From contig CACYHE010000012.1 of NCBI GenBank assembly GCA_902774185.1, positions 1 through 57,134 of the forward strand: 57,134 nucleotides of DNA, read 5' to 3'. A program made the translations under genes and the position numbers. This document shows positions 13,232 through 30,414 of this stretch, piece after piece. Source of the DNA: an uncultured Bacteroidales bacterium. GTDB lineage: Bacteria > Bacteroidota > Bacteroidia > Bacteroidales > Paludibacteraceae. The first letter of the stretch is position 1, and the number at the start of each line of letters is the position of its first letter. Below the pieces are notes generated by a model that had not been told where the DNA came from, did not search any database, and saw only the letters and a list, made by a program, of their open reading frames with translations.

Positions 13232-14110
13232 TTAGTCTTTATCTGCAAAATGATAACTGATACCGATAAGGTGCATCAAGGTGCGCTGTTCGGTCAGATG
13301 GATCGTTTGTTTCTTGGGTTTGACATTGATGTCTCGGTCATACCTATATTGGAAACGATAGGAGAAATCCAAGGAGTTACGCCTATCTAACCGCCAGGTC
13401 ACGCCGATACCTGTTCGGATATACCGGATATACTGACGACCGGTATTGGCGGTGTTATTGGCGGCGTAGTATTGTTGGAGAGGGTTCGCGTTGAGCGTGT
13501 TCTCCAATTCACACCACAGGTAGGGTTTGAGCGGTTTGCTTACTGCATGGTACGCCACTTCGATCTTCGATCGCAGGTACCAGTTGGCGCGGTTATCTTC
13601 GTAATACCCTGTTTCCGTATGTTGGTCCAGATTGTCCATGCGGATCTCCGTCAACACGCGTTCACGCAAACCGAAGGACCAGTTCTCATAGCGGTAGGAA
13701 CCATGCAGACTGAAGAACGCACGATGCCGCATGAACTGCTTGACGGCCAGCGTATCTTTGTTGGTCAGTTTGAGCGTATAACCTATATCGCCTTTGAGAT
13801 ACGCGAACTGCGGATGCTTGTAACTAAGCGTGAGGGTAGTGTAGGACTTGTTAAAACGCGGTCCTGTCAACGAAGTGGTGGTAGCCGAAGCGGTCTCTTT
13901 GGTCACATTAGAGACCATGTCAAAACGGAGATCTTCGGCTAAACGCAAACCCAAACCGTTCTTCCACTTCTTACCATAGCTCGCCTCTACCCGCAGTTGG
14001 GCTGCGTGTTTGTCCTTATTCTGCGTGGAGCTATAGTCCCAGGCGTGCGCAGGTACAGAGCACAGAATACAGAACACAGAACACAGACCGATAATGGATA
14101 CGCGTCTCAT
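13232..14110 (-). CDS. DUF2490 outer-membrane protein
   Basis: A 292-residue exported protein with alternating strands rich in Tyr, Trp and Arg (WYLRSKIEVAYHAV, LSYKHPQFAYLKGDIGYTLK), expected to be an outer-membrane beta-barrel. Its signal peptide MRRVSIIGLCSVFCILCSVP contains the ACAGAAC-type repeat array in place of ordinary hydrophobic codons. Such barrels accompany VTC/DUF4956 genes. The start overlaps the DUF4956 stop by 4 bp. The role is unknown; a surface partner for the DUF4353 lipoprotein is an inference from position only. Confidence 0.78.
   Translation of the reverse strand: MRRVSIIGLCSVFCILCSVPAHAWDYSSTQNKDKHAAQLRVEASYGKKWKNGLGLRLAEDLRFDMVSNVTKETASATTTSLTGPRFNKSYTTLTLSYKHPQFAYLKGDIGYTLKLTNKDTLAVKQFMRHRAFFSLHGSYRYENWSFGLRERVLTEIRMDNLDQHTETGYYEDNRANWYLRSKIEVAYHAVSKPLKPYLWCELENTLNANPLQQYYAANNTANTGRQYIRYIRTGIGVTWRLDRRNSLDFSYRFQYRYDRDINVKPKKQTIHLTEQRTLMHLIGISYHFADKD
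14054..14089. repeat. 7-bp array, ACAGAAC family, in a signal peptide
   Basis: Five units run from AGAGCACAGA to CACAGACC. The same two ends delimit related copies in thiL (26191-26231) and nrnA (51885-51918). Confidence 0.8.
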
Positions 14111-16698: not shown

Positions 16699-17168
16699 GC
16701 GTGCTTGATGATGTAATAGGGGATATCCAAAGCCCGGATCTCGGCTTCGTAGCGTTGAAAGAGTTCCATACGGATGGCATCAGAACCGTTGGAACGGGCA
16801 GGGTCGGGAATCCAAGGCAGATCAGGATAGGTTAACAGATAGACGTCCATCGGATAACGATGGATGTTTTCATTTAACCATTCGGGTACACGCCCAAATG
16901 CATAATCGAACCATACCTTGGTTACGAGTAGTTCGGTGTCGAAGAAGATGGTTTGAGATGGTTCGATGTTGTTTGAAATGGTTTGAAGTTGTTCGATCTG
17001 ATATTTCGCAATGTCGCATAACTCATCCCACGTGACCTCTGTCGTACCTTTCCGCTCCACGTACGTACGCGCATACTCAGGCACGTACGTACCTTTGTAT
17101 CTACGCGCAAGGTAACGAGCCAGCGTACTCTTGCCCGTACTCTCAGGACCGATTATTCCGACTCTCAT
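16695..17168 (-). CDS. NadR-like nucleotide/riboside kinase (AAA domain)
   Basis: A P-loop protein of 157 residues similar to the C-terminal ribosylnicotinamide kinase domain of NadR. Walker A is GPESTGKST (residues 7-15); [11 protein letters not shown] and [18 protein letters not shown] are the conserved substrate regions, and [14 protein letters not shown] closes the active site. It probably makes NMN from nicotinamide riboside; this is by family only. The segment [12 protein letters not shown] in the middle is translated from a 10-bp repeat array (16949-17000), where relatives have a shorter loop. The start overlaps the sprA stop by 4 bp, so it is the last gene of the ruvA-sprA operon. Confidence 0.82.
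16949..17000. repeat. 10-bp tandem array inside the NadR-like kinase gene
   Basis: Five 10-bp units of type GTTTGAGATG/GTTCGATGTT, in frame. Related 10-bp units occur in sprA (24570-24612) and at 52918-52961. Confidence 0.8.
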
Positions 17169-20100
17169 CGTGTCAGCATGAGTTTGATGTTCAAACCGAT
17201 GTTATCGGCTTTGACAGGGTAGGAAGATGAGATGAGCGGGGTAGTGCCTTGGTGGTCGTAGAAGAGCTGGAGGTTCACCTTCTGACTGAGCACATAGTCT
17301 GCTGACACTTTGATTGCCAGCACACGGTTACCGCTGGACGCTTGTGTGATACCCCGATCCAGTTCGGTGGAGTTAGCGACATAGAAATCCGTCGGCACTT
17401 TGCGGAGTAACATCTTGACATCCTTATACGACACATCGACCTGCAGTTTGAGGTCATTGCTTACCCGTCTCTGTCCACCGTCTTTCTTCTTGGCGATGAA
17501 GCCGAGGTTCTTGATGGTATAACCTGCACCGACCACAAACTCTTTGGTATGTCCTTCTGTCAGTTGTACGGAGGTGACGTTAAGCGCCAGGTTACGCTGT
17601 TGACGGTACTCGGTCTTGAAGGAGAGCGAGTTCTTCATCGTCAGGTTGAGACCGATGAGCGGAGAGAAGGCTTCGGTGATGGTGACATTGGAGATGTCGT
17701 ACGCCGAAGAGGGGCTGGGTGTATCGTTGGTGACGTCCCGCACGAAGCCGACCTGTTTGTTCGAACCATCGACACCGACCCATGTGGAGTAGGAACCGAA
17801 GGAGCCGATGGCGTATTTACAGGTGTAAGCATGGGTGAGTGTGACAGACTTGAAGTGATCCCGCATCCAAGGCAGTTTGCCCAGACCGTCATACGTGACG
17901 GACCAGTTAGGCAGTATCTTCAGGATACCCAAGAAGGGGTTGAGACTGATCTTGTTGGCGCTCTGTCCGGTGTAGGCAGCAAGGAACGCCGGGATGAGGA
18001 CGTCGGCAGAGTTATTGCTGACGCGTCCGTGTTTGCGCGGGTCATACTTGGTGCCTGTCGGTATATTACTCATGAAACCGGAAGAAGGCAAGGTGACACC
18101 CGTGTATTGGTTCTGCACACGTCCGGTGAGCGTGACACGGTTCGCCAGGAACGCATCGTAAGCACTGTTACTGAAGTTCTCATCCTGTGAACCGACACGG
18201 CTGAAGATGGTTCCGATAGCCACTTGGGTAATGTTGAACGAACCTGTCATGTTCTCCTGCAGATCCCCGTAACTATAGGTGATGGACGACGACTGCGCCA
18301 TGTAGCGTTTACCGTTCAACTGCACTTTGAGTCCCGGCAGGGGTTCGAGGGTCAGTTTGATATCGAGGTCCGAAGTATGGGCTCTGGTGGCAGGTTGCAC
18401 GATAGAGGTATCGCCGGAGAGCCATAGGTTCTTTTGTGCCCGCTCCATCATGTTATTGGGGATGAAACCGAAGGCGAAGTCAAAGCCCGGCGCATAGATG
18501 CCGTTGGTTCGTCTCTGTCCCATGAATCCGGCTTCCGGCATAAAGCCCGGAATGGTCATGGAGTTAGTCTCCCGATAGGTGACTTGTACGCGACGGAACA
18601 TCGTACCGACATAGGCGAACATGTCTGCCGTGATCTGCTTACCGTTCCGCTGGTTAGGATCCCGTGTGGTGACGGTGATGACAGCTTGTGCGCAGTCCGC
18701 CTTCGGCGTGATGCTCACTTTGGTGTTTCCGGCAGGTTGGAAGGTGACCGGAATCGACTTACCGGTTGTATCGGCTACGGTGACGGTGAGCAGTTCGCTA
18801 TTCAGACGGTGGGTCACTTCGACTGCCTGTCCCTTGGTAAGGGCAACGGTCTGGGTGTAGGTCTTGGGTTTGAACGTCCGTCGTGACCCCCGACCGGTGT
18901 AGTACTGGGTCATCGTCTTCCAATATTTGGATTTACCGTACCAGGTCTCGAAATTAATACCTCCGTCCACTTGCCAGGACTGCAATGAACTGACGGTGTT
19001 ACCCCGGTCGATACCGGCTGTGGTAGAAGCTGTTCGGGTCCAGTTATAGGTGGCATTATAGGAAGCGTTACCGGTAAGTGCATCTAATCCCGGAACCCGG
19101 TTGAACGGCACGTTCCATGACGCAGTGAAGACCTGCTGGTAGGTATAAGGCGAACCCCATTTGGCGAGGGATCGCTGGATGGTATCTTTCCATGCCTCGT
19201 AATGGTCATGGTTGAACTCCGCATCGAAATAACGGCCGTTGAGGATCTCCGGCGTGTAGGCTCCTTCGTCTATGGTCGCGTTCATAGCGGACTGGAAGGA
19301 GAACTTCATGTTCTTCGTCAGGTCAAACTTGATGTCCACATTTCGATCCCATGTGAAGTCTTTGCTGAAGGTCAGATCCATCACATCGCCGGCATCGCCG
19401 GTCAGGTCACGCATCTTCATATGGCTGAAGGTGCGGTGCATATTCGTATTGAACGCCCAGGACTGCGGCAGGTAGTAGAAGTTCATCTCTTTGAGGATCT
19501 TCACCTTGCTCACTTTCTCCACTTTAGCGAAGGGTTCCCATGGTTTTGGGTTGAAGTTATAAGCATACTGGAAGCTACCCTTATGGTCCGTGGTGAGGTT
19601 GGTTTCCATCTCCGGCGAGTGTTCGGACTGCTTGTTATAGGACGCGGATATCGAGAAGTTCGCCGGGTCGTAGAACATATCTTTCTTCTTGGAGTGGATG
19701 TTGACCTTGAGGTTACTTACGCTGAAGGACGTGGACTCATGTACGGTGTTGGACATCTGCCGGATGGAGTCTTTCTCCTCCTTGGTGTTATAGGTCTCCA
19801 GGGTCTCTTTGAGTTTGACGTCGGTGTCCAGCGGGTCGTAGTCCGGGCTGGTCGTCTCATTGCTATAGGAGACATAAAGCGGCATCTGTATCTTCGCTTT
19901 CTCGGGGAAGAGACGTCCGGCTTCGAGTGCTGCGCTGACGGAGAGTTGGTAGAAGTTCTCCATGTTACGGTCGAGCACGTTGGACTCGATGGAACCGTAT
20001 CCGGCAGTCTCCATACGTCCGGCTACGTTGACCTGTGCGATGTCACTGATGGCAAGGGAAGCGTTCGCCATCGCTGCCACACCGCCTTGCTCGTTAAACT

Positions 20101-23100
20101 GACTCAACCGCAGTTCGTTCACCCATACCTCACCGCTGGCGTCATGTTGACCGTTGTTACGGACACCGATCATGATGGACGATACCTCTTCAAGGGTAGG
20201 ATTACCGAGGACGGTGATCTTATTCTGCGATTTGCCGGACTCGTCATCATAGATGACGTACGGGATGGTGTTGCTTATGCCTTCGTTACCGGCGCGTTTG
20301 GCTTTGTTACGTTGTACCTTGGCTTTGGTAAGTGATTGTAGGGGCACATCGAACATGTTCTCTTGCGGCCACACTTTCGCGCGGTCATCGGCAGAGTTGT
20401 TGTTATATATTCCCGCAGGTGTCAGATGAAGCGGGATCTCATATTCGTAGTAGTTATTGCGCAGGTCAGAACCCAAGCGGATGAAGCAGGTGAGGTCTCC
20501 GTCTTTGAGGTTCGGATCATCGGCTTCCATCTTCTCCGCATGGACGAACATCTGCAGGTTCTTATACTGCCGCATATCGTATCCGGTGTTCTTGTACATA
20601 GCGCGCGCGTCTCTCGGACTGAGGTTACGCACCCGCAGAACCATCGCCTGTTCGTTCTGGGCGATGAGTTGGGCTTGTCCCGGATCGGTCTGCCGGCTGA
20701 CACCCGGAGGCAGGACGTAGTTAACCGGCGTACGGGTACTGTTCTCTTCGATATTGACGGTCTGCACGTCGATGGAAGCACCGGTGTTGACAGGAACACC
20801 GACAGGTGCCAGATCCCGTGTGTACTGTCTCCAGTCGCCACGCACAAGGTCCAAGGTGGCAAAACGAAGATGGGTCTCTTTGGTACAGCCCGTGAGGTAC
20901 ATACGCATGAAACGGATGGACTTCCAGTTGCGGATAGAACCGATCTTCTGCATGGTTGCACTGTCCCCTTTGAGAGGTATCTTGAACTGATACCAAGTCA
21001 CATCGACCGTCTCACCGTTACGCAGCGTGACCCGTTTGATCTTCTTCTCGGTGATATGCTGGCGTCCTACCTCCATCATGTCGGGACGAAGGATAACTTT
21101 GTACTGGTAATATTTCTCGTATTCGTTGAGGGTGTTGTCCTGGTTGATATCTTCGATATCGGGGTTGAGGGTGGACGCCGTACCGTAACTCTCCGTCTGC
21201 TGTTCGGTAGCAGGGGAGTTGCCTTCGGTACCGTTGAAGTGTTTGTAACGCTCCAAGATGGGCACTTGTGCCTCATCGAAGTCGGAACCGCGATAGTAAT
21301 GGTAATCATCGCCGGCAGGGTCATTGCGGGGTGAGAAACGGTCATTGATCCATTCGTTCCATACGGTACGGGAGACACGACCTTGCAGGTCGGTCAAGAA
21401 GGACTGATACGCAGGCCAGGTCTTCTCGGTCTCACTATTGATACCGTTCAAACCCACATCCTGCATCTGTCGTGCGCCTTGTTCGTTGCTGAAGGCGACA
21501 ACGGTACTGGTGGTACGCGGTACGTATCCCCAGACGGTGGAATCCACACGTCCTTTATCTTCAGCACTGACGGGCAGACCATGCTCGAAGGCTTTCTTTC
21601 CGTCCCGTAAAATATCCTCGCTGATATCCCCAAGGTTGATGTAGAGCTCGCCTTCATACCCGTTCGGGTTGGTAAGGGCAGGATCCATCAACCAGAACTG
21701 GATATACTCGATGTTCGCTTTCTCGAAATCGGTGTTATCCAATCGCCGCATGATACCGCCCCAACGTTGTTTGGGGTTTGTCAGATGACCTTCGCTGTTG
21801 AACTGGTCGGCGTTGATGTTATATTGACCGCGTTCCTCGGGATAGAAAGCGAGGTTGAGAATCGGTAACTTGGTATCGACGTTGCTTGCCTCCTGACGGT
21901 TGGGATATATCTCATCCTGATAGACGATACGTGTGCGATGATCACTCATGGCGTTGAGGTCATTGCGGATATCTGCCGGGGTGTTGGTCTGCGGATAACC
22001 GAAGATCGGATCGACAGCGAACCAGGAGAGGTGCGCACGGTTCTTGTTATAGGTCACTTTACCCACATCTTTGGACTCATCGAAGACGGTTGGCGTCGAA
22101 GCCAGGAACCAGTAACTGGGGTAATGGACATCGATATTGGTGGTCGTTGTTTCGAAGTCATCGATATAAGCGGTACCTACGGAACCTACGTCCCGTGTGT
22201 GTCCCGGAATGAGGTGGGCGAACTCTGCGCTTATCTGGAACGTGGACGGTGCGGTAGCCGTGATCCATGGGATCTTATCGATGGCATTGGTTAACCACTG
22301 CATCTCGGTTTTCCAACTACCGTTGACGCCCCAGATGGTGTTGGCAAGGGGTTCGGAACCGGTGTTCACTTTGGTCGTGAGCGGTCTTTCGCGCAGGTGC
22401 ATGATAGTACCGCCGACCAACAGGTCTTTGTTGAACTCGTATTCGAGGTGCGCACCGAAGAGGGACTTCCGCTGCATGGAGAAGGTCGATTGGTTCTCCA
22501 GTTTGACATCGACGTTCGTTCCCGATTCGAGGATAGAGGTGTTGAGAATCGTAACCGTACCCATCGTATAATCGACGGTGTAATCGACGTTTTCGATGAG
22601 GGTGGCACCTCCGGCTGTGACGGTGACCGAACCACGTGGCACGTTCATCGCTCCCAGACGTATCTCACTACCGTTCGTGCCTTTGTACTTACCGGTGAGG
22701 TGGAACTTGTTCTTCTCGCTGAACTCCTGTGCCACGACAAGGGTGGAGTCGTACAGGATCTGATAGCAGTATTTCTTCGCCAAGGCAGTCTCGGAACCGC
22801 CTAAGAGGTTAGCCAGGTGGGAACCGAAGGGTTCGAGCACTGGGAAGATGATCTTACCGGAGGACGCATAGATTGTCAGTCCTTCAATGAAGTCAAACCG
22901 TCCGTCAGGGTGGGCGTTATTCTTCTGATCAAGTCGGTCCAGATTCATGACGCGCAACAGTTGTTTGCCGCTGATAGGTCCTTCATTGAAATACTGGATG
23001 TCGGTTCCGACGGAGTCGTTCCGGTAGGAGACATAGAGTTCGAACTTCTCCTGGTTGATACTGGTAGCACCGAGGGAGTAGATATTCTTCATCATCAGGT

Positions 23101-24763
23101 CCCATGTACCCCGTCCTTTCTTATCGGGTGCGTTGGCACTGGACTTGACCATTTTAAGAGCCAAAGCATTGGGTGTACGCAGTTCGTCGCTACCATCGGT
23201 AGAGAACTCACCGACTTGATAGACTTTACCGTTATAGGTGTATTCGTATGCGACCGCAAGCACTTCGTCCTGATTGAGGGCACTCTTGAGGGAGATGTAA
23301 CCCAAAGCACTGTTAAGTGTATATTCGCTGCTGGTGAGTAGTCGTGCCGATTCGATCTTCTCGAAGTCCACTCCGCCTTCCATGCCGTTAAGTCCTTCGA
23401 GGGCCGCACTGGTCGTTTGCAGATCACGGAAAGCGGTGGTACGGATGGTTGCATAGAGGTCGTTGGCACTGTTGTCAGGTGCGGCATTGACACTACCCAT
23501 CCATGCTTCGTTCTGGGTGTGGGTGACACTCTCGCCCAAGTCGGTGAAGGCAACGATGTTACGTGCCTGCTCGTAGTTACCGCGTTTATTGGTGATCCAT
23601 ACTTCGATCTTGTTGATGGTGAATCCGCTGGCGATATATGGCGCGGTTTGCATCGCTTCCTCATAATGATCCCGGAAGAAATGGGAGAGGAAGAAATGTC
23701 GGTTCTCATCGTAGGCATCACCGCTGATGTCGAACTTCGTCATCTGTGCACCGCCTTGACTGCTGACAGTCTGCGCCTCGCTGTTCTGCTGACTGACGAG
23801 GGCTTGGATACGGAACTTACCGAACTTGAGGTTGGTCTTGATACCGAAGAGCGCTTTGCTACCCCGTATAAGGGAGGAAGGAAGGTCCATGGTGACGTTT
23901 CCCGCCTCAATAGATTGGATGATGTCGTCCTCTTCGCCTTTGTAGTTCAGTTTGAGGTTCTGCTGGTCAAAGGAGAACGATGCCTCGGTATTATAGGACA
24001 GGTTGAAGTTGAGACGTGTACCCACTTTACCTTGGATGCTGGCTTGTATCTTCTCGTCGAAATCGAAGATGTTGTTGTTGCGTGCGCGTGCAGTAAGCGA
24101 AGGGTTGGCGATATACTGGTGTTTGAATCCGAAGAGCAGTTCAGCCGAACCTTGCATCTTGAGTTGCACACCGCCGGGACCGAACACTTTATCGGCAGGA
24201 CCGATGTTAAACTTCATATCGGTGATGTCGAATTTCGATTCGTTGTTATGCTCCACTTCGCCTATCTTCTGCTGCCAGTAACGGTGCATGAGTTGGCGCT
24301 CGGCATAACGGTTGTATTCCTCCTGCGTGAGCATGTACGGCGTTGTGACGTCGGTATCGCCCATCTTGGTCCGGATGATATAGGTTCCCGTTTGTGGTTG
24401 GTACTCTACGGTCGTGGTGATGTTGGATGGGTCGTTGAGGTCCAATGAACTGACGGCTTGCGTGAGTTCATCATAGTCTTTTGCGCCCAGTTGCTTGACG
24501 TGGGTAGGCGCCCAGATGGCGCTATCTGTTTCGGTAACGATGTCGGCTACTTCTTCGGGAGAAGTAGGTGTTTGAGATTGTTTGGGGTCGTTTGATGTTG
24601 TTTGAGATTGTTTTTTCGACTCCTTCGCCGCTTTCTCCTCTTCTTTCGCCTGCTTCTCTGCCTCTTTCTGTGCTTTCTCTTCGGCTATCAGTTCTTTGAG
24701 CGTCTTGGGCTTAGACGGCGTAGTCTGAGCTACCACCGTCACCGGTAGCAGCACAAGAAGCAA
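17165..24763 (-). CDS. sprA: SprA/Sov, type IX secretion outer-membrane translocon
   Basis: The giant 36-strand outer-membrane barrel through which type IX cargo passes. At about 2530 residues it has the usual length. The N-terminal half has the family landmarks: PADKVFGPGGVQLKMQGSAE, FNFDFDEKIQASIQGKVG-type plug strands, and TAYIDDFETTTTNIDVHYPS; the C-terminus is a barrel ending in [12 protein letters not shown] Lys/Glu-rich linker (EEKAQKEAEKQAKEEEKAAK) follows the signal peptide, then an in-frame 10-bp array. No ATG start exists. TTG at 24763 would give MLLVLLPVTVVAQ; in-frame upstream codons read KHYLYIL preceded by ATT (24782-24784) in a repeat, so the ancestral start was probably ATG there. 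Downstream of ruvA, upstream of a NadR-like kinase. Confidence 0.93.
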   Translation of the reverse strand: MLLVLLPVTVVAQTTPSKPKTLKELIAEEKAQKEAEKQAKEEEKAAKESKKQSQTTSNDPKQSQTPTSPEEVADIVTETDSAIWAPTHVKQLGAKDYDELTQAVSSLDLNDPSNITTTVEYQPQTGTYIIRTKMGDTDVTTPYMLTQEEYNRYAERQLMHRYWQQKIGEVEHNNESKFDITDMKFNIGPADKVFGPGGVQLKMQGSAELLFGFKHQYIANPSLTARARNNNIFDFDEKIQASIQGKVGTRLNFNLSYNTEASFSFDQQNLKLNYKGEEDDIIQSIEAGNVTMDLPSSLIRGSKALFGIKTNLKFGKFRIQALVSQQNSEAQTVSSQGGAQMTKFDISGDAYDENRHFFLSHFFRDHYEEAMQTAPYIASGFTINKIEVWITNKRGNYEQARNIVAFTDLGESVTHTQNEAWMGSVNAAPDNSANDLYATIRTTAFRDLQTTSAALEGLNGMEGGVDFEKIESARLLTSSEYTLNSALGYISLKSALNQDEVLAVAYEYTYNGKVYQVGEFSTDGSDELRTPNALALKMVKSSANAPDKKGRGTWDLMMKNIYSLGATSINQEKFELYVSYRNDSVGTDIQYFNEGPISGKQLLRVMNLDRLDQKNNAHPDGRFDFIEGLTIYASSGKIIFPVLEPFGSHLANLLGGSETALAKKYCYQILYDSTLVVAQEFSEKNKFHLTGKYKGTNGSEIRLGAMNVPRGSVTVTAGGATLIENVDYTVDYTMGTVTILNTSILESGTNVDVKLENQSTFSMQRKSLFGAHLEYEFNKDLLVGGTIMHLRERPLTTKVNTGSEPLANTIWGVNGSWKTEMQWLTNAIDKIPWITATAPSTFQISAEFAHLIPGHTRDVGSVGTAYIDDFETTTTNIDVHYPSYWFLASTPTVFDESKDVGKVTYNKNRAHLSWFAVDPIFGYPQTNTPADIRNDLNAMSDHRTRIVYQDEIYPNRQEASNVDTKLPILNLAFYPEERGQYNINADQFNSEGHLTNPKQRWGGIMRRLDNTDFEKANIEYIQFWLMDPALTNPNGYEGELYINLGDISEDILRDGKKAFEHGLPVSAEDKGRVDSTVWGYVPRTTSTVVAFSNEQGARQMQDVGLNGINSETEKTWPAYQSFLTDLQGRVSRTVWNEWINDRFSPRNDPAGDDYHYYRGSDFDEAQVPILERYKHFNGTEGNSPATEQQTESYGTASTLNPDIEDINQDNTLNEYEKYYQYKVILRPDMMEVGRQHITEKKIKRVTLRNGETVDVTWYQFKIPLKGDSATMQKIGSIRNWKSIRFMRMYLTGCTKETHLRFATLDLVRGDWRQYTRDLAPVGVPVNTGASIDVQTVNIEENSTRTPVNYVLPPGVSRQTDPGQAQLIAQNEQAMVLRVRNLSPRDARAMYKNTGYDMRQYKNLQMFVHAEKMEADDPNLKDGDLTCFIRLGSDLRNNYYEYEIPLHLTPAGIYNNNSADDRAKVWPQENMFDVPLQSLTKAKVQRNKAKRAGNEGISNTIPYVIYDDESGKSQNKITVLGNPTLEEVSSIMIGVRNNGQHDASGEVWVNELRLSQFNEQGGVAAMANASLAISDIAQVNVAGRMETAGYGSIESNVLDRNMENFYQLSVSAALEAGRLFPEKAKIQMPLYVSYSNETTSPDYDPLDTDVKLKETLETYNTKEEKDSIRQMSNTVHESTSFSVSNLKVNIHSKKKDMFYDPANFSISASYNKQSEHSPEMETNLTTDHKGSFQYAYNFNPKPWEPFAKVEKVSKVKILKEMNFYYLPQSWAFNTNMHRTFSHMKMRDLTGDAGDVMDLTFSKDFTWDRNVDIKFDLTKNMKFSFQSAMNATIDEGAYTPEILNGRYFDAEFNHDHYEAWKDTIQRSLAKWGSPYTYQQVFTASWNVPFNRVPGLDALTGNASYNATYNWTRTASTTAGIDRGNTVSSLQSWQVDGGINFETWYGKSKYWKTMTQYYTGRGSRRTFKPKTYTQTVALTKGQAVEVTHRLNSELLTVTVADTTGKSIPVTFQPAGNTKVSITPKADCAQAVITVTTRDPNQRNGKQITADMFAYVGTMFRRVQVTYRETNSMTIPGFMPEAGFMGQRRTNGIYAPGFDFAFGFIPNNMMERAQKNLWLSGDTSIVQPATRAHTSDLDIKLTLEPLPGLKVQLNGKRYMAQSSSITYSYGDLQENMTGSFNITQVAIGTIFSRVGSQDENFSNSAYDAFLANRVTLTGRVQNQYTGVTLPSSGFMSNIPTGTKYDPRKHGRVSNNSADVLIPAFLAAYTGQSANKISLNPFLGILKILPNWSVTYDGLGKLPWMRDHFKSVTLTHAYTCKYAIGSFGSYSTWVGVDGSNKQVGFVRDVTNDTPSPSSAYDISNVTITEAFSPLIGLNLTMKNSLSFKTEYRQQRNLALNVTSVQLTEGHTKEFVVGAGYTIKNLGFIAKKKDGGQRRVSNDLKLQVDVSYKDVKMLLRKVPTDFYVANSTELDRGITQASSGNRVLAIKVSADYVLSQKVNLQLFYDHQGTTPLISSSYPVKADNIGLNIKLMLTR
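24570..24612. repeat. 10-bp array inside the sprA 5' region
   Basis: Four 10-bp units TTTGANNTTG, translated on the minus strand as SQTTSNDPKQSQT, extend the charged linker after the signal peptide. Confidence 0.8.
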
Positions 24764-28033: not shown

Positions 28034-28058
28034 AATGATGCGAATGGTGAAATGATGG
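28024..28058. repeat. 8-bp-type array before kdsD
   Basis: Two longer units built on GGTGAAATGATG span the ispD stop and the kdsD start codons. Confidence 0.6.
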
Positions 28059-29032
28059 AAAAAGAGACAATGATACTTCAAAGAGCTGCAGAGTGCCTGC
28101 AATGTGAGGCAGCATCTGTGTTGGCTTTGGTGCCACGTTTGGACGAATCTTTTGTTCGTGCCGTACAACTGATTCATGACTGCAAAGGGAAAGTGGTTGT
28201 GACGGGTGTTGGCAAGTCCGGACATATCGGAAGTAAGATTGCTGCAACCTTGGCGAGTACAGGAACACCGGCATTCTTCTTGAATCCGCTGGATGCGTAT
28301 CACGGCGATCTGGGTATGTTAGGGGAAGGCGATCTGGTGTTGGCGATTTCTTATTCAGGTGCGACGGAAGAGTTATTGCGTTTTCTGCCGTTGATACAAG
28401 CAAAACATATCCCTATTATCGCGATGTCGTCTAATCCGGAGAGTCTGTTAGCGCAGAATGCCGATGTGCATCTGAATATCGCTGTGGAGAAAGAGGCGGA
28501 TCCGCTGAACCTGGTGCCTACTTCTTCGACGACGGTGACGTTGGCATTGGGAGACGCGTTGGCCTGTGCGCTTATTGAAGCGGCACATTTCCAACCGACA
28601 GATTTTGCGATGTTGCACCCCGGAGGAGATTTGGGACGAAAGTTACTGGCGAAAGTGGAAGATGTGATGTTTACGGAGAACCTGCCGTTCCTGACGCCGA
28701 ACATGCCGCTGAGTGAGGCGATCGAGATCGTGACGAATGGAAAGTTAGGTATCGGTATTGTGGTGGAGAACGAGAGGCTGGTAGGTATCATCACCGACGG
28801 CGATATCCGTCGAGCCATGCAACGTTTGGGACAGGAGTTTTTCGCTACGCCGGTGAAAGATGTCATGGCATGCCATCCGAAGACCATTTCCCGTTCCGCC
28901 AAGATCGTGGAAGCCGGCGAGACGATGAACCATCACTCGATTCATTCGCTTATTGTGCTGGATGACGCGTCCCATGTGTGCGGTGTGATTGACTCGTTCT
29001 CATGTTTGCCGGGCACGCGATTTTACCATTGA
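28052..29032 (+). CDS. kdsD: Arabinose-5-phosphate isomerase (KdsD/KpsF)
   Basis: It converts ribulose 5-phosphate to arabinose 5-phosphate, the first step to Kdo. The 326-residue protein has the N-terminal SIS domain (VVVTGVGKSGHIGSKIAATL, then DAYHGDLGML and SYSGATEELL) and two CBS domains from about residue 205 (VEDVMFTENLPFL and VKDVMACHPKTIS). Full length and motif set are standard. The ATG at 28052 is followed by a second at 28055; both lie in the array. Its stop is followed by an 11-bp repeat and a gene-free 785-bp region. Confidence 0.93.
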   Translation: MMEKETMILQRAAECLQCEAASVLALVPRLDESFVRAVQLIHDCKGKVVVTGVGKSGHIGSKIAATLASTGTPAFFLNPLDAYHGDLGMLGEGDLVLAISYSGATEELLRFLPLIQAKHIPIIAMSSNPESLLAQNADVHLNIAVEKEADPLNLVPTSSTTVTLALGDALACALIEAAHFQPTDFAMLHPGGDLGRKLLAKVEDVMFTENLPFLTPNMPLSEAIEIVTNGKLGIGIVVENERLVGIITDGDIRRAMQRLGQEFFATPVKDVMACHPKTISRSAKIVEAGETMNHHSIHSLIVLDDASHVCGVIDSFSCLPGTRFYH

Positions 29033-29054: not shown

Positions 29055-29098
29055 TGATTAAGGAATCGTTAAGGAATATATAAGGAATCACTAAGGTT
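29055..29098. repeat. 11-bp tandem repeat downstream of kdsD
   Basis: Four units of AAGGAATCGTT type, starting within 25 bp of the kdsD stop. Confidence 0.75.
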
Positions 29099-29110: not shown

Positions 29111-29133
29111 TATTATATACTATGTATATAATA
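29111..29133. other. AT-rich palindrome after kdsD
   Basis: ATTATATAC pairs with GTATATAAT around TAT. It might end the kdsD transcript, though no T-run follows. Confidence 0.5.
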
Positions 29134-29160
29134 CTATGTAGAAAGAGAGATATTGTATAA

Positions 29161-29797
29161 AAATGCATTGGCGAAGTTGACGATATTGGCGATATCGCCA
29201 AAAACGACAATATCGCCATGCAAAAAAATAACATGAGAAAAGTGAGAATTCTTAGCCACAAGGGCACGATATTTTCTCAGAATTCTTAAAAATCTCAGTG
29301 CAAAAATTTAATGTCGGATACCATCCGATGCAACAAACATAGAAAAAATGACATTGCACTATGTGCACTATTTGCACTTTGATGGTGAAAGTGCAGAAAG
29401 TGCAAAAAGTGCAGAGCAAAAAATGACGTGAGACAGTTGAGATAGTTGAGACAGTTGGAGACGAAGTGTCTCAAGAGTCTCAAGAATCTCATGCAAAAAA
29501 ATGCATGAGAAAAGTGAGAAAAGTGAGAATTTGAGCGGTAAATTCTTAGCCACAAAGGCACGATAATTCCTCAAAATTCTCAAAATTCTCAATGCAAATT
29601 TTTATGTCGGATATATCCGACGCAATGAACAAAGAAAAATGACATGACAAAGTTGACAAAGTTGACCAAGTTAGAATAGAAGTTTGTCAAGATGGTCAAC
29701 TTAGTCATGCAAAAAATGACATGGCACAAATGGCACTATTGGCACTATGAAGCCGGAAAGTGCCAATAGTGTCAAAAGTGCCAAGCAAATTTTTAGA
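29161..29797. repeat. Array of about seven hairpin cassettes made of 9-bp words
   Basis: No gene is here. Each cassette has about three tandem 9-bp words, a spacer, and about three words complementary to them, so each folds as a long imperfect hairpin. Approximate positions: 29165-29219 (word TTGGCGATA), 29233-29299 (TGAGAAAAG), 29352-29415 (TGCACTATG), 29428-29492 (TGAGACAGT), 29506-29592 (TGAGAAAAG again), 29643-29707 (TTGACAAAG), 29721-29785 (TGGCACTAT). The edges are shared: ATGACA or ATGAGA at the left, TGCAAAAA or GCAAATTTTT at the right. Cassettes 2 and 5 also share a spacer with TTAGCCACAARGGCACGATA and are each followed by a small TGTCGGAT...ATCCGA hairpin. The word differs between most cassettes while the geometry does not. 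Confidence 0.9.
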
Positions 29798-29817
29798 AAG
29801 AAACAAAATAGGTTGAT

Positions 29818-30414
29818 ATGAAGATACTTTTTGATTTAGATGGAACAGTAACGGCGCAAGAGACTTTGCCAGTTATAGCTCAGCATTTTGGTGTTGAGGA
29901 AAAGATAGCAGAGTTAACGGCACAAACCGTTCAAGGCAATGTGCCTTTTATCGAGAGTTTCATACGTCGAGTGAATATTTTAGGCGATTTACCGGTATCT
30001 AAGATTTCGGAGTTATTGGATCAGGTGCCCTTATATCCACAATTGTATGCGTTTATTCAGGCTCATAGAGACGATTGCGTGATTGTTACAGGCAATCTCT
30101 CTTGTTGGTGTGAAGGCTTGCATAATAAGATTCAATGTAAGACCTACTGCTCGGAGGCAGAAGTGGTGGATAATCGAGTCGTTAAGTTAAAGTCTATATT
30201 GCGAAAGGAGCAGATTGTAGATTTATATAAGGCTGCTGGTGAACAAGTGGTTTTTGTTGGTGACGGTAATAATGATTTGGAAGCAATGCGTCATGCAGAC
30301 ATATCTATTGCAACGGGATTGACCCATAATCCGGCACGTAGTTTATATGCTATATGCGATTATATAATTTTTAATGAGAATGCGTTATGTCGGCAATTAA
30401 ATCAGTTGTTATAA
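29818..30414 (+). CDS. HAD family phosphatase (SerB-like)
   Basis: A 198-residue HAD hydrolase: motif I MKILFDLDGTVTAQETLP, motif II IVTGNLS, motif III VFVGDGNNDLEAMRHADISIA. The layout resembles phosphoserine phosphatase, but the substrate is unknown. It opens a four-gene, AT-rich operon, and its 3' end overlaps the next gene by 28 bp. In this setting it may dephosphorylate a polyol or sugar phosphate before or after activation by the nucleotidyltransferase; this is an inference. No standard promoter is seen between it and the hairpin array. Confidence 0.82.
   Translation: MKILFDLDGTVTAQETLPVIAQHFGVEEKIAELTAQTVQGNVPFIESFIRRVNILGDLPVSKISELLDQVPLYPQLYAFIQAHRDDCVIVTGNLSCWCEGLHNKIQCKTYCSEAEVVDNRVVKLKSILRKEQIVDLYKAAGEQVVFVGDGNNDLEAMRHADISIATGLTHNPARSLYAICDYIIFNENALCRQLNQLL

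Follow-up and report, generated by a model that had tools for sequence, protein, structure and literature searches.

A dispersed family of short non-coding DNA cassettes built from direct and inverted 6-bp words, nearly confined to one genus of Bacteroidales

Short non-coding DNA cassettes make up the hairpin array of the window and belong to a dispersed family that is nearly confined to one genus. In the typical cassette a single 6-bp word occurs six times, three times in direct and three times in inverted orientation, with one copy per 9 bp. Palindrome families dispersed in bacteria usually hold to a single sequence; in this one the geometry is kept and the word changes at all six positions together. 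The cassettes lie on the seams of kpsF loci, and the flanking DNA of related loci differs at them. They are best read as non-autonomous sites that may act as, or ride on, joints between gene modules, which is a candidate role. The window denotes the whole 57,134-nt stretch of DNA analysed; C labels refer to contigs of its own metagenome-assembled genome (MAG), and L and G labels to the loci and genomes compared.

The array and the architecture of its cassettes

A strict detector requiring tandem words plus the inverted complement of the same words returned five period-9 matches in the window, every one within 29181-29783. At other periods, three matches were found elsewhere at period 7, and none at 8, 10, 11 or 12. 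Application of this detector to 20 Markov shuffles gave 1, 0, 0 and 0 matches at periods 8, 9, 10 and 11, respectively. A looser 6-mer detector returned seven period-9 matches (six merged, spanning 29168-29784, and one spurious at 13421), one match at period 10 and none at the remaining periods of 6 to 15; the mean at period 9 over 10 shuffles was 0.0. The 641-nt array was folded at -225.2 kcal/mol, vs -130.6 (sd 6.6) in 20 dinucleotide shuffles (z -14.4). A covariance model (R1) was built from 33 oriented copies, some of them the window's own cassettes, and placed seven plus-strand cassettes across 29157-29795. The original prediction of about seven hairpin cassettes with about three words per arm and a 9-bp period is thus borne out by the detectors, the shuffles, the fold and R1, with periodicity and complementarity clearly above shuffled sequence. 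Its description of common edges, changing words and short spacers was also right, as was the placement of the array on a seam between core genes and an A+T-rich acquired operon: a kpsF-like gene lies upstream, and G+C drops at the array from 0.499 to 0.381 between adjoining 2-kb windows. The features of this region were as follows.

28052..29032, plus strand: kpsF/kdsD-like core-side gene with SIS and CBS domains (Pfam PF01380, PF00571)
29059..29096, plus strand: a degenerate 11-bp repeat TAAGGAATNNN in three copies 5' of the array, from a dispersed repeat family also present before other cassettes
29111..29133, unstranded: A+T-rich palindrome TATTATATAC-TAT-GTATATAATA, read by eye; possible promoter or operator
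29157..29230, plus strand: cassette 1, word class TGGCGA (TTGGCGATA), loop ATAT; R1 score 70.6 bits; included in alignment A1
29222..29310, plus strand: cassette 2, word class TGAGAA, partly decayed, with the TTCTTAGCC string in its loop; R1 score 43.8 bits
29248..29270, plus strand: spacer string ATTCTTAGCCACAAGGGCACGAT inside cassette 2; similar strings without cassettes on C17 and C5
29314..29328, unstranded: mini-hairpin TCGGAT-ACC-ATCCGA, a dispersed repeat with variants on C16
29342..29426, plus strand: cassette 3, word class TGCACT; R1 score 73.3 bits
29417..29503, plus strand: cassette 4, word class TGAGAC; R1 score 73.2 bits
29494..29604, plus strand: cassette 5, word class TGAGAA, kin to cassette 2 and aligned with it; R1 score 61.6 bits
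29542..29564, plus strand: spacer string in the loop of cassette 5, of the same repeat family as the string in cassette 2
29607..29620, unstranded: mini-hairpin TCGGAT-AT-ATCCGA, 3' of cassette 5, of the same repeat family as 29314..29328
29633..29719, plus strand: cassette 6, word class TGACAA/TGACCA; R1 score 63.8 bits
29710..29795, plus strand: cassette 7, word class TGGCAC, ending in CCAAGCAAATTTTTA; R1 score 95.3 bits, the highest
29790..29817, plus strand: TTTTTAGAAAGAAACAAAATAGGTTGAT leader reaching the first ATG of the acquired operon; similar leaders before unrelated genes in relatives
29818..30414, plus strand: first gene of the A+T-rich operon, a HAD-type phosphatase (Pfam PF12710)

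Cassettes 2 and 5 have a 64-nt block in common (86% identical). The shared word, spacer string and mini-hairpin, from which one had been taken for a copy of the other, were all confirmed, but the block is a composite, because the spacer string and mini-hairpin are also found without cassettes elsewhere in the genome. As had been stated, the array is not a CRISPR: words and loops both vary and only short edges are near-constant, and with no constant repeat alternating with unique spacers this candidate was rejected. A search of the window against Rfam at gathering scores returned two tRNAs only and no family for the array. On C28 and C22, arrays are likewise adjoined by palindromes similar to that at 29111..29133. 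The minus strand carries a 2532-aa open reading frame at 17165-24763, approximately 4 kb upstream of the array region.

Several further repeats were noted around the cassettes. Tandem 11-bp repeats (TAAGGAATNNN / AATAACTAACG) constitute a separate dispersed repeat, often beside cassettes and frequently soon after a stop codon; they precede cassettes in L031, L032, L034, L035, L073, L076 and L089, and the motif adjoins own-genome arrays on C28, C22, C33 and C20. The mini-hairpin TCGGAT(n)ATCCGA and its tail GCAATGAACATAGA form an independent dispersed repeat, tandem variants of which occur without cassettes on C16 (L037, L038). The string TTCTTAGCC(A/G)CAAGGGCACGAT occurs in cassette loops, in both orientations, and alone elsewhere, as if inserted into loops; its sites comprise 29248-29270, 29542-29564, L089 (reverse), L098, C17 and C5. 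Related hairpins with an 8-bp period (e.g. GTGTCGCT) were seen at L087:7685-7781 and approximately 2.1 kb into loci L051 and L065.

Architecture was described from three sets. Alignment A1 comprised 33 of 38 listed reference copies. The detector set comprised 106 period-9 matches, of which 64 were parsable and 58 distinct. For the third set, 150 of 197 model matches were aligned and then collapsed to 112 nonredundant copies. Cassettes are approximately 63-136 bp long. Typically an A-run, a T and a few further bases lead into three 6-bp cores and their 3-nt linkers; a loop of free sequence and the inverted cores come next, and then GCAAA, followed 3' by a T-run or by the remainder of the next cassette's A-run. 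The 3' ends of the 112 copies read AAATTTT in 46, CAAAAA in 50 and otherwise in 16. The only invariant parts of A1 are a left AAAA and a right GCAAA; the commonest edge forms are TGACATG and CATGC, and the consensus is AAAAAATGnCATG ... CATGCAAA. Edges and geometry are near-constant over word classes and species in this alignment, and the same architecture is found in nine word classes with five or more members. The leading classes among the 112 copies are TGAGAC, TGACCA, TGGCGA, TGCACT, TGACCG, TGAGAA, TGGCAC and TGTCAG. Left cores begin with T in 322 of the 332 counted and have G second in 289. Within a class, arms are alike across species and loops differ.

The repeat unit had been described as a whole 9-bp word. 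The period of 9 bp stood, but the unit is better taken as a 6-bp core plus a 3-nt linker, and only the cores are complementary. In A1, cores were paired between arms in 92.6% of 571 cells (33 copies), vs 69.8% when shuffled, with a core covariation of 0.542 vs 0.168. The linkers were paired in 54.5% vs 53.1% when shuffled, with no covariation between arms. A copying process that makes both arms together, which the original prediction had offered as one origin, does not agree with these values, since the linkers would then match too. Cores were less divergent than left linkers in eight of the nine classes with at least five members (TGAGAC, 0.054 vs 0.272; TGGCGA, 0.129 vs 0.462; the exception being TGTCAG) and less divergent than the outer right linker in eight of nine (exception TGACCG); core conservation is biased upward in these comparisons, as the detector, the class labels and the model all use cores and the members of one class share ancestry.

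Selection for a fold, the other origin offered, also fared poorly. Of the signature of a structured RNA (compensatory change, with G-U tolerated), the covariation of cores was present, but neither an excess of G.T mismatches nor partner-specific matching was found. Mismatches of the G.T and A.C types numbered 24 vs 20 in the 33 copies and 70 vs 67 in the 112 copies, or 17 vs 23 when counted as distinct states. Words matched their pairing partner better than a non-partner in 3, equally in 17 and worse in 13 of 33 comparisons; a larger test, limited to the first two core pairs, gave 4, 46 and 11 of 61. Because G.T is not in excess of A.C and partners match no better than non-partners, the word itself appears to be what is kept. 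Constraint seems to act on the word and not on RNA base pairing, as with repeated DNA-binding sites, and the complementarity of the arms would be a consequence of three word copies being inverted.

Spread of the family and its position relative to genes

BLAST searches with the array identified relatives on further contigs of the own MAG and in sister species, with matches in 18 of 61 genomes at E <= 1e-6, all of one genus. R1 found 14 copies in the own 2.19-Mb MAG, seven of them in the window array, and at E <= 1e-5 matched 25 of the 61 sampled same-genus genomes, which upholds the proposed element family with further genomic copies of equal geometry; genome counts are lower bounds, as part of the first-look candidates was scored and MAGs are incomplete. 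Order-wide, R1 matched 2 of 149 genomes: the own genome and, among the 148 others, G089, with a lone, weak match. G089 belongs to another family and is the sole genome of its genus in the set; its element (L233:1508-1588), present as a single copy in the genome, is a 9-bp-word hairpin with TGGCATTTG words and GCACG/CGTGC edges. Over the loci examined, the 6-mer detector gave 106 nonredundant matches at period 9, compared with 3-20 at every one of the remaining periods between 6 and 15.

Near-complete genomes of the genus include some with no R1 match (97-98% complete; e.g. G011, G014, G017, G028, G033) and some with matches (e.g. G034, G073). When genomes were grouped by phosphoglucomutase identity, carriers made up 22 of 31 at >=90%, 2 of 24 below that value and 1 of 6 with no match, so the cassettes are mostly a trait of one subgroup. 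Named kpsF relatives were from Paludibacteraceae and other Bacteroidales, mostly ruminant MAGs. A phage origin was rejected: viral contigs yielded 57 stretches fitting a 17-base pattern with 15 specified positions, near the chance level by our own estimate, and 0 matches to the TGGCGA palindrome. No account of such cassettes was found in the open-access literature, which is not proof of absence.

For the kpsF survey, 80 loci (957 kb) were searched with R1 at E <= 0.01. This gave 43 distinct matches in 29 loci, none of them farther than 2.7 kb from kpsF and all on its 3' side; the scoring strand is that of kpsF for 40, and three are listed on the other strand alone. In L078 and L091, which are without cassettes, the next gene starts approximately 10 bp after the kpsF stop codon. 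In other kpsF loci the gap holds cassettes, sometimes together with RhuM or DUF1016 genes (Pfam). A kpsF tree with 64 labelled loci requires at least 17 changes of cassette presence or absence (shuffled mean 21.4), at least five of them forced by well-supported branches; the labels exclude five loci whose downstream DNA was short, and L087 and L104 were labelled negative yet hold cassettes missed by the model. Subject to such missed cassettes among the negatives, turnover appears rapid.

Positions relative to genes were counted for the 112 copies, whose loci were chosen mostly for holding cassettes. The cassette was on the strand of the upstream gene in 79 of the 108 cases having one, and 16 of these 79 overlapped or abutted the upstream stop codon. 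Intergenic settings were same-strand, convergent and divergent in 77, 19 and 6 cases, vs a baseline of 190, 31 and 33. Adjacent copies were in like orientation in 15 of 21 cases, by best model strand. In several DUF3987 genes the stop codon is the element's first TGA, and the word class differs between copies. One and the same gene bears different cassettes from species to species, and word choice is not tied to one neighbour gene. The leader TTTTTAGAAAGAAA, with an ATG soon after, was found 3' of arrays before unrelated genes at 13 of 30 element loci, vs 1 of 35 loci with no model match.

Differences between related loci at cassettes

Closely related kpsF loci differ 3' of kpsF by whole modules. 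Between L092 and L093, identity is 91.6% across the 7.6 kb that lead up to the array start; beyond it L093 has a different first cassette and a RhuM gene, after which the two loci share a two-cassette array plus leader (92.3% over 155 bp) and are followed by different genes. Identity between L109 and L131 is 93% as far as 7 bp beyond the kpsF match and once more on the far side of the module, and the DNA between the shared parts measures 0.12 kb vs 2.8 kb, respectively.

In genome G083, a TGACCG cassette is present at seven loci examined. L238 and L239 have 359 bp in common, ending at the end of this cassette. L237 and L239 have 433 bp in common, starting just before it, and a further 95 bp to the left at an offset of approximately 100 bp, so their left sides are only partly different. 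An outer TGGCAA element in this genome is split by one or two complete inner cassettes, and in L238, L240 and L234 complete cassettes are nested in another cassette's loop. The interval from the outer arm, which is of the same kind in both loci, to the TGACCG unit contains one additional unit in L234 relative to L238. A-runs flank cassettes on both sides, and arrays differ by single units. Among the loci compared, no clean case of a single-cassette empty site at base resolution was found.

Proposed explanation and alternatives

We tentatively favour a reading in which the cassettes are word-specific DNA sites of several specificities. The words would be the sites of a sequence-specific DNA-binding factor, with the word classes corresponding to its several specificities. 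This factor, or recombination between like cassettes, would spread the cassettes through the genome and turn them into joints where accessory modules, those for surface polysaccharides among them, are exchanged. New units may enter at the A-run plus the TGACAT edge common to neighbouring units, by which array length would rise or fall one unit at a time. The capacity to form hairpins would then follow incidentally from arrays of inverted sites, or may act at the DNA level. Both word-specific binding and a part for the cassettes in exchange are what we infer from sequence comparison. Against this reading, flank exchange could be ordinary homologous recombination between repeats, words have no link to one neighbour gene, only 15 of 21 adjacent copies are in like orientation, and the use of cores by detector, labels and model inflates core conservation within classes of shared ancestry. 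The cassettes also prefer gene 3' ends and avoid divergent promoters, as RNA-level elements would. No cognate binding protein or recombinase was identified; Y1 transposases and the integron integrase do not fit.

It is rather doubtful that the cassettes are recombination or transposition sites of several specificities on a 9-bp scaffold, read by paralogous enzymes and serving as joints for polysaccharide and accessory modules in the genus. A serine recombinase is a weak lead as a partner. Its gene is near arrays in 4 of 22 neighbourhoods, two of them found through the array (L274, L275, L351 and L352 in G015, G030, G079 and G021; beside or within approximately 3.5 kb of arrays), and cassettes were present in 2 of 20 serine recombinase neighbourhoods examined. 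The gene occurs in 45 of 61 genomes, comprising 21 of 25 with cassettes and 24 of 36 without. All 13 genomes with its closest relatives (>=76% identity) carry cassettes; in a phosphoglucomutase control from the same genome, 10 of the first 13 genomes were cassette-bearers, so kinship explains most of the link.

The main alternative, in which the cassettes are RNA elements that act in a transcribed 5' leader or 3' end as attenuator, terminator or mRNA protector and tolerate many words because the fold alone counts, is unlikely but is kept in consideration because of cassette orientation and position. The preference for the upstream gene's strand, the scarcity of divergent settings and the cases at stop codons all agree with it, as do the strong fold and the purine-rich loops (A 0.35, G 0.29 in the 112 copies). 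A gap of 22 bp separates the end of the window's last cassette from the next ATG, which makes transcription of the operon through this cassette probable. The mismatch counts speak against this alternative, and folding energy is similar on both strands, with the lower value on the plus strand in 59 of 112. The case for a general role as terminator is weak: bidirectional intrinsic terminators resemble the cassettes in having an A-run, hairpin and T-run (46 of 112 copies), but 50 of 112 have no T-run, the stem is long and mismatched, the arrays are serial, and tandem words are not needed for a terminator. An intrinsic terminator scan gave no plus-strand site in the array and only two small minus-strand sites. 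It is improbable that the cassettes are a functionless mutational product, with words and arms made by replication slippage and template switching in hairpins. Such a process would suit the near-identity of words within a cassette, the tandem and inverted period-9 structure and the freely varying loops, but linkers are not common to both arms and are more variable than cores in most classes, edges and geometry are near-constant over word classes and species, and the family is almost confined to one genus. The cassettes resemble iteron-like or arm-type recombinase binding arrays in having several direct and inverted short sites with free linkers, and differ in that a single scaffold accommodates many word classes and its copies are scattered through the genome. 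They are similar to MITEs (a kind mentioned in PMC3733652) in being non-coding and dispersed with inverted ends and nested copies, and the A-run on both sides could be a target duplication. Terminal inverted repeats are present, at the core pairing given above, but they consist of short arrays of words, which are replaced entirely from one class to the next. Neither a parent transposon nor a long-range arm pair around a transposase was recognised among the 104 of 332 arms flagged as unpaired in the loci examined, many of these flags being out-of-phase readings of complete cassettes.

A chance as small as that of the mutational product is given to an integron-like system, in which each cassette would be a folded single-strand site 3' of a mobile gene, joined by a tyrosine recombinase. 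Integron attC sites carry paired R and L boxes, GTTRRRY and RYYYAAC. Like attC sites (a subject of PMC3053210), the cassettes are imperfect hairpins of variable sequence and fixed geometry, and some lie at stop codons and between exchangeable gene modules; single-gene modules (RhuM, DUF1016) with cassettes are found between kpsF or kdsC and the sugar operon. They differ in their six repeated words, in the existence of arrays without genes and in the different cassettes borne by the same gene in different species. The integron candidate was rejected: the integrase model TIGR02249 scored above its cut-off in 0 of 61 genomes, and sub-threshold matches were also obtained in all 14 control genomes. 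Movement of REP/BIME-type repeats by a RAYT (Y1) transposase is very improbable. Cassettes resemble REP/BIME and REPtrons, as described in PMC3733652 and PMC6006769, in being clustered, short, intergenic imperfect palindromes near gene 3' ends, with several copies and several families of similar geometry per genome. REP repeats are given there as 20-65 bp, vs the length of the cassettes stated above, whose arms are built of 9-bp units and whose 33-copy consensus is without a GTAG/GTRG foot. Y1 genes (PF01797) occur in 22 of the 61 genus genomes at 1e-3, 18 of them over the cut-off, including cassette-bearing G009 and G068. The suggested link to a RAYT/Y1-type transposase was not obtained. PF01797 was absent from the own genome and from the element-rich G015, G021 and G083, and did not track the cassettes (10 of 25 genomes with, 12 of 36 without), and for these reasons RAYT was set aside; absence from the own genome is not in itself proof, because the MAG is 87% complete. 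The nearest kinds are thus REP repeats, MITEs and attC sites, of which MITEs are a candidate match; as REP and attC each fail a defining feature that was tested, the cassettes are classed as a dispersed intergenic palindromic repeat, which is a known kind, and they differ from described REP and attC.

The family raises the question of what reads words of TG plus four bases every 9 bp, and whether there is a word code. The cassettes of kpsF loci closely mark where surface-sugar operons differ between uncultured rumen Bacteroidales, and could help to trace or explain the exchange of these operons.
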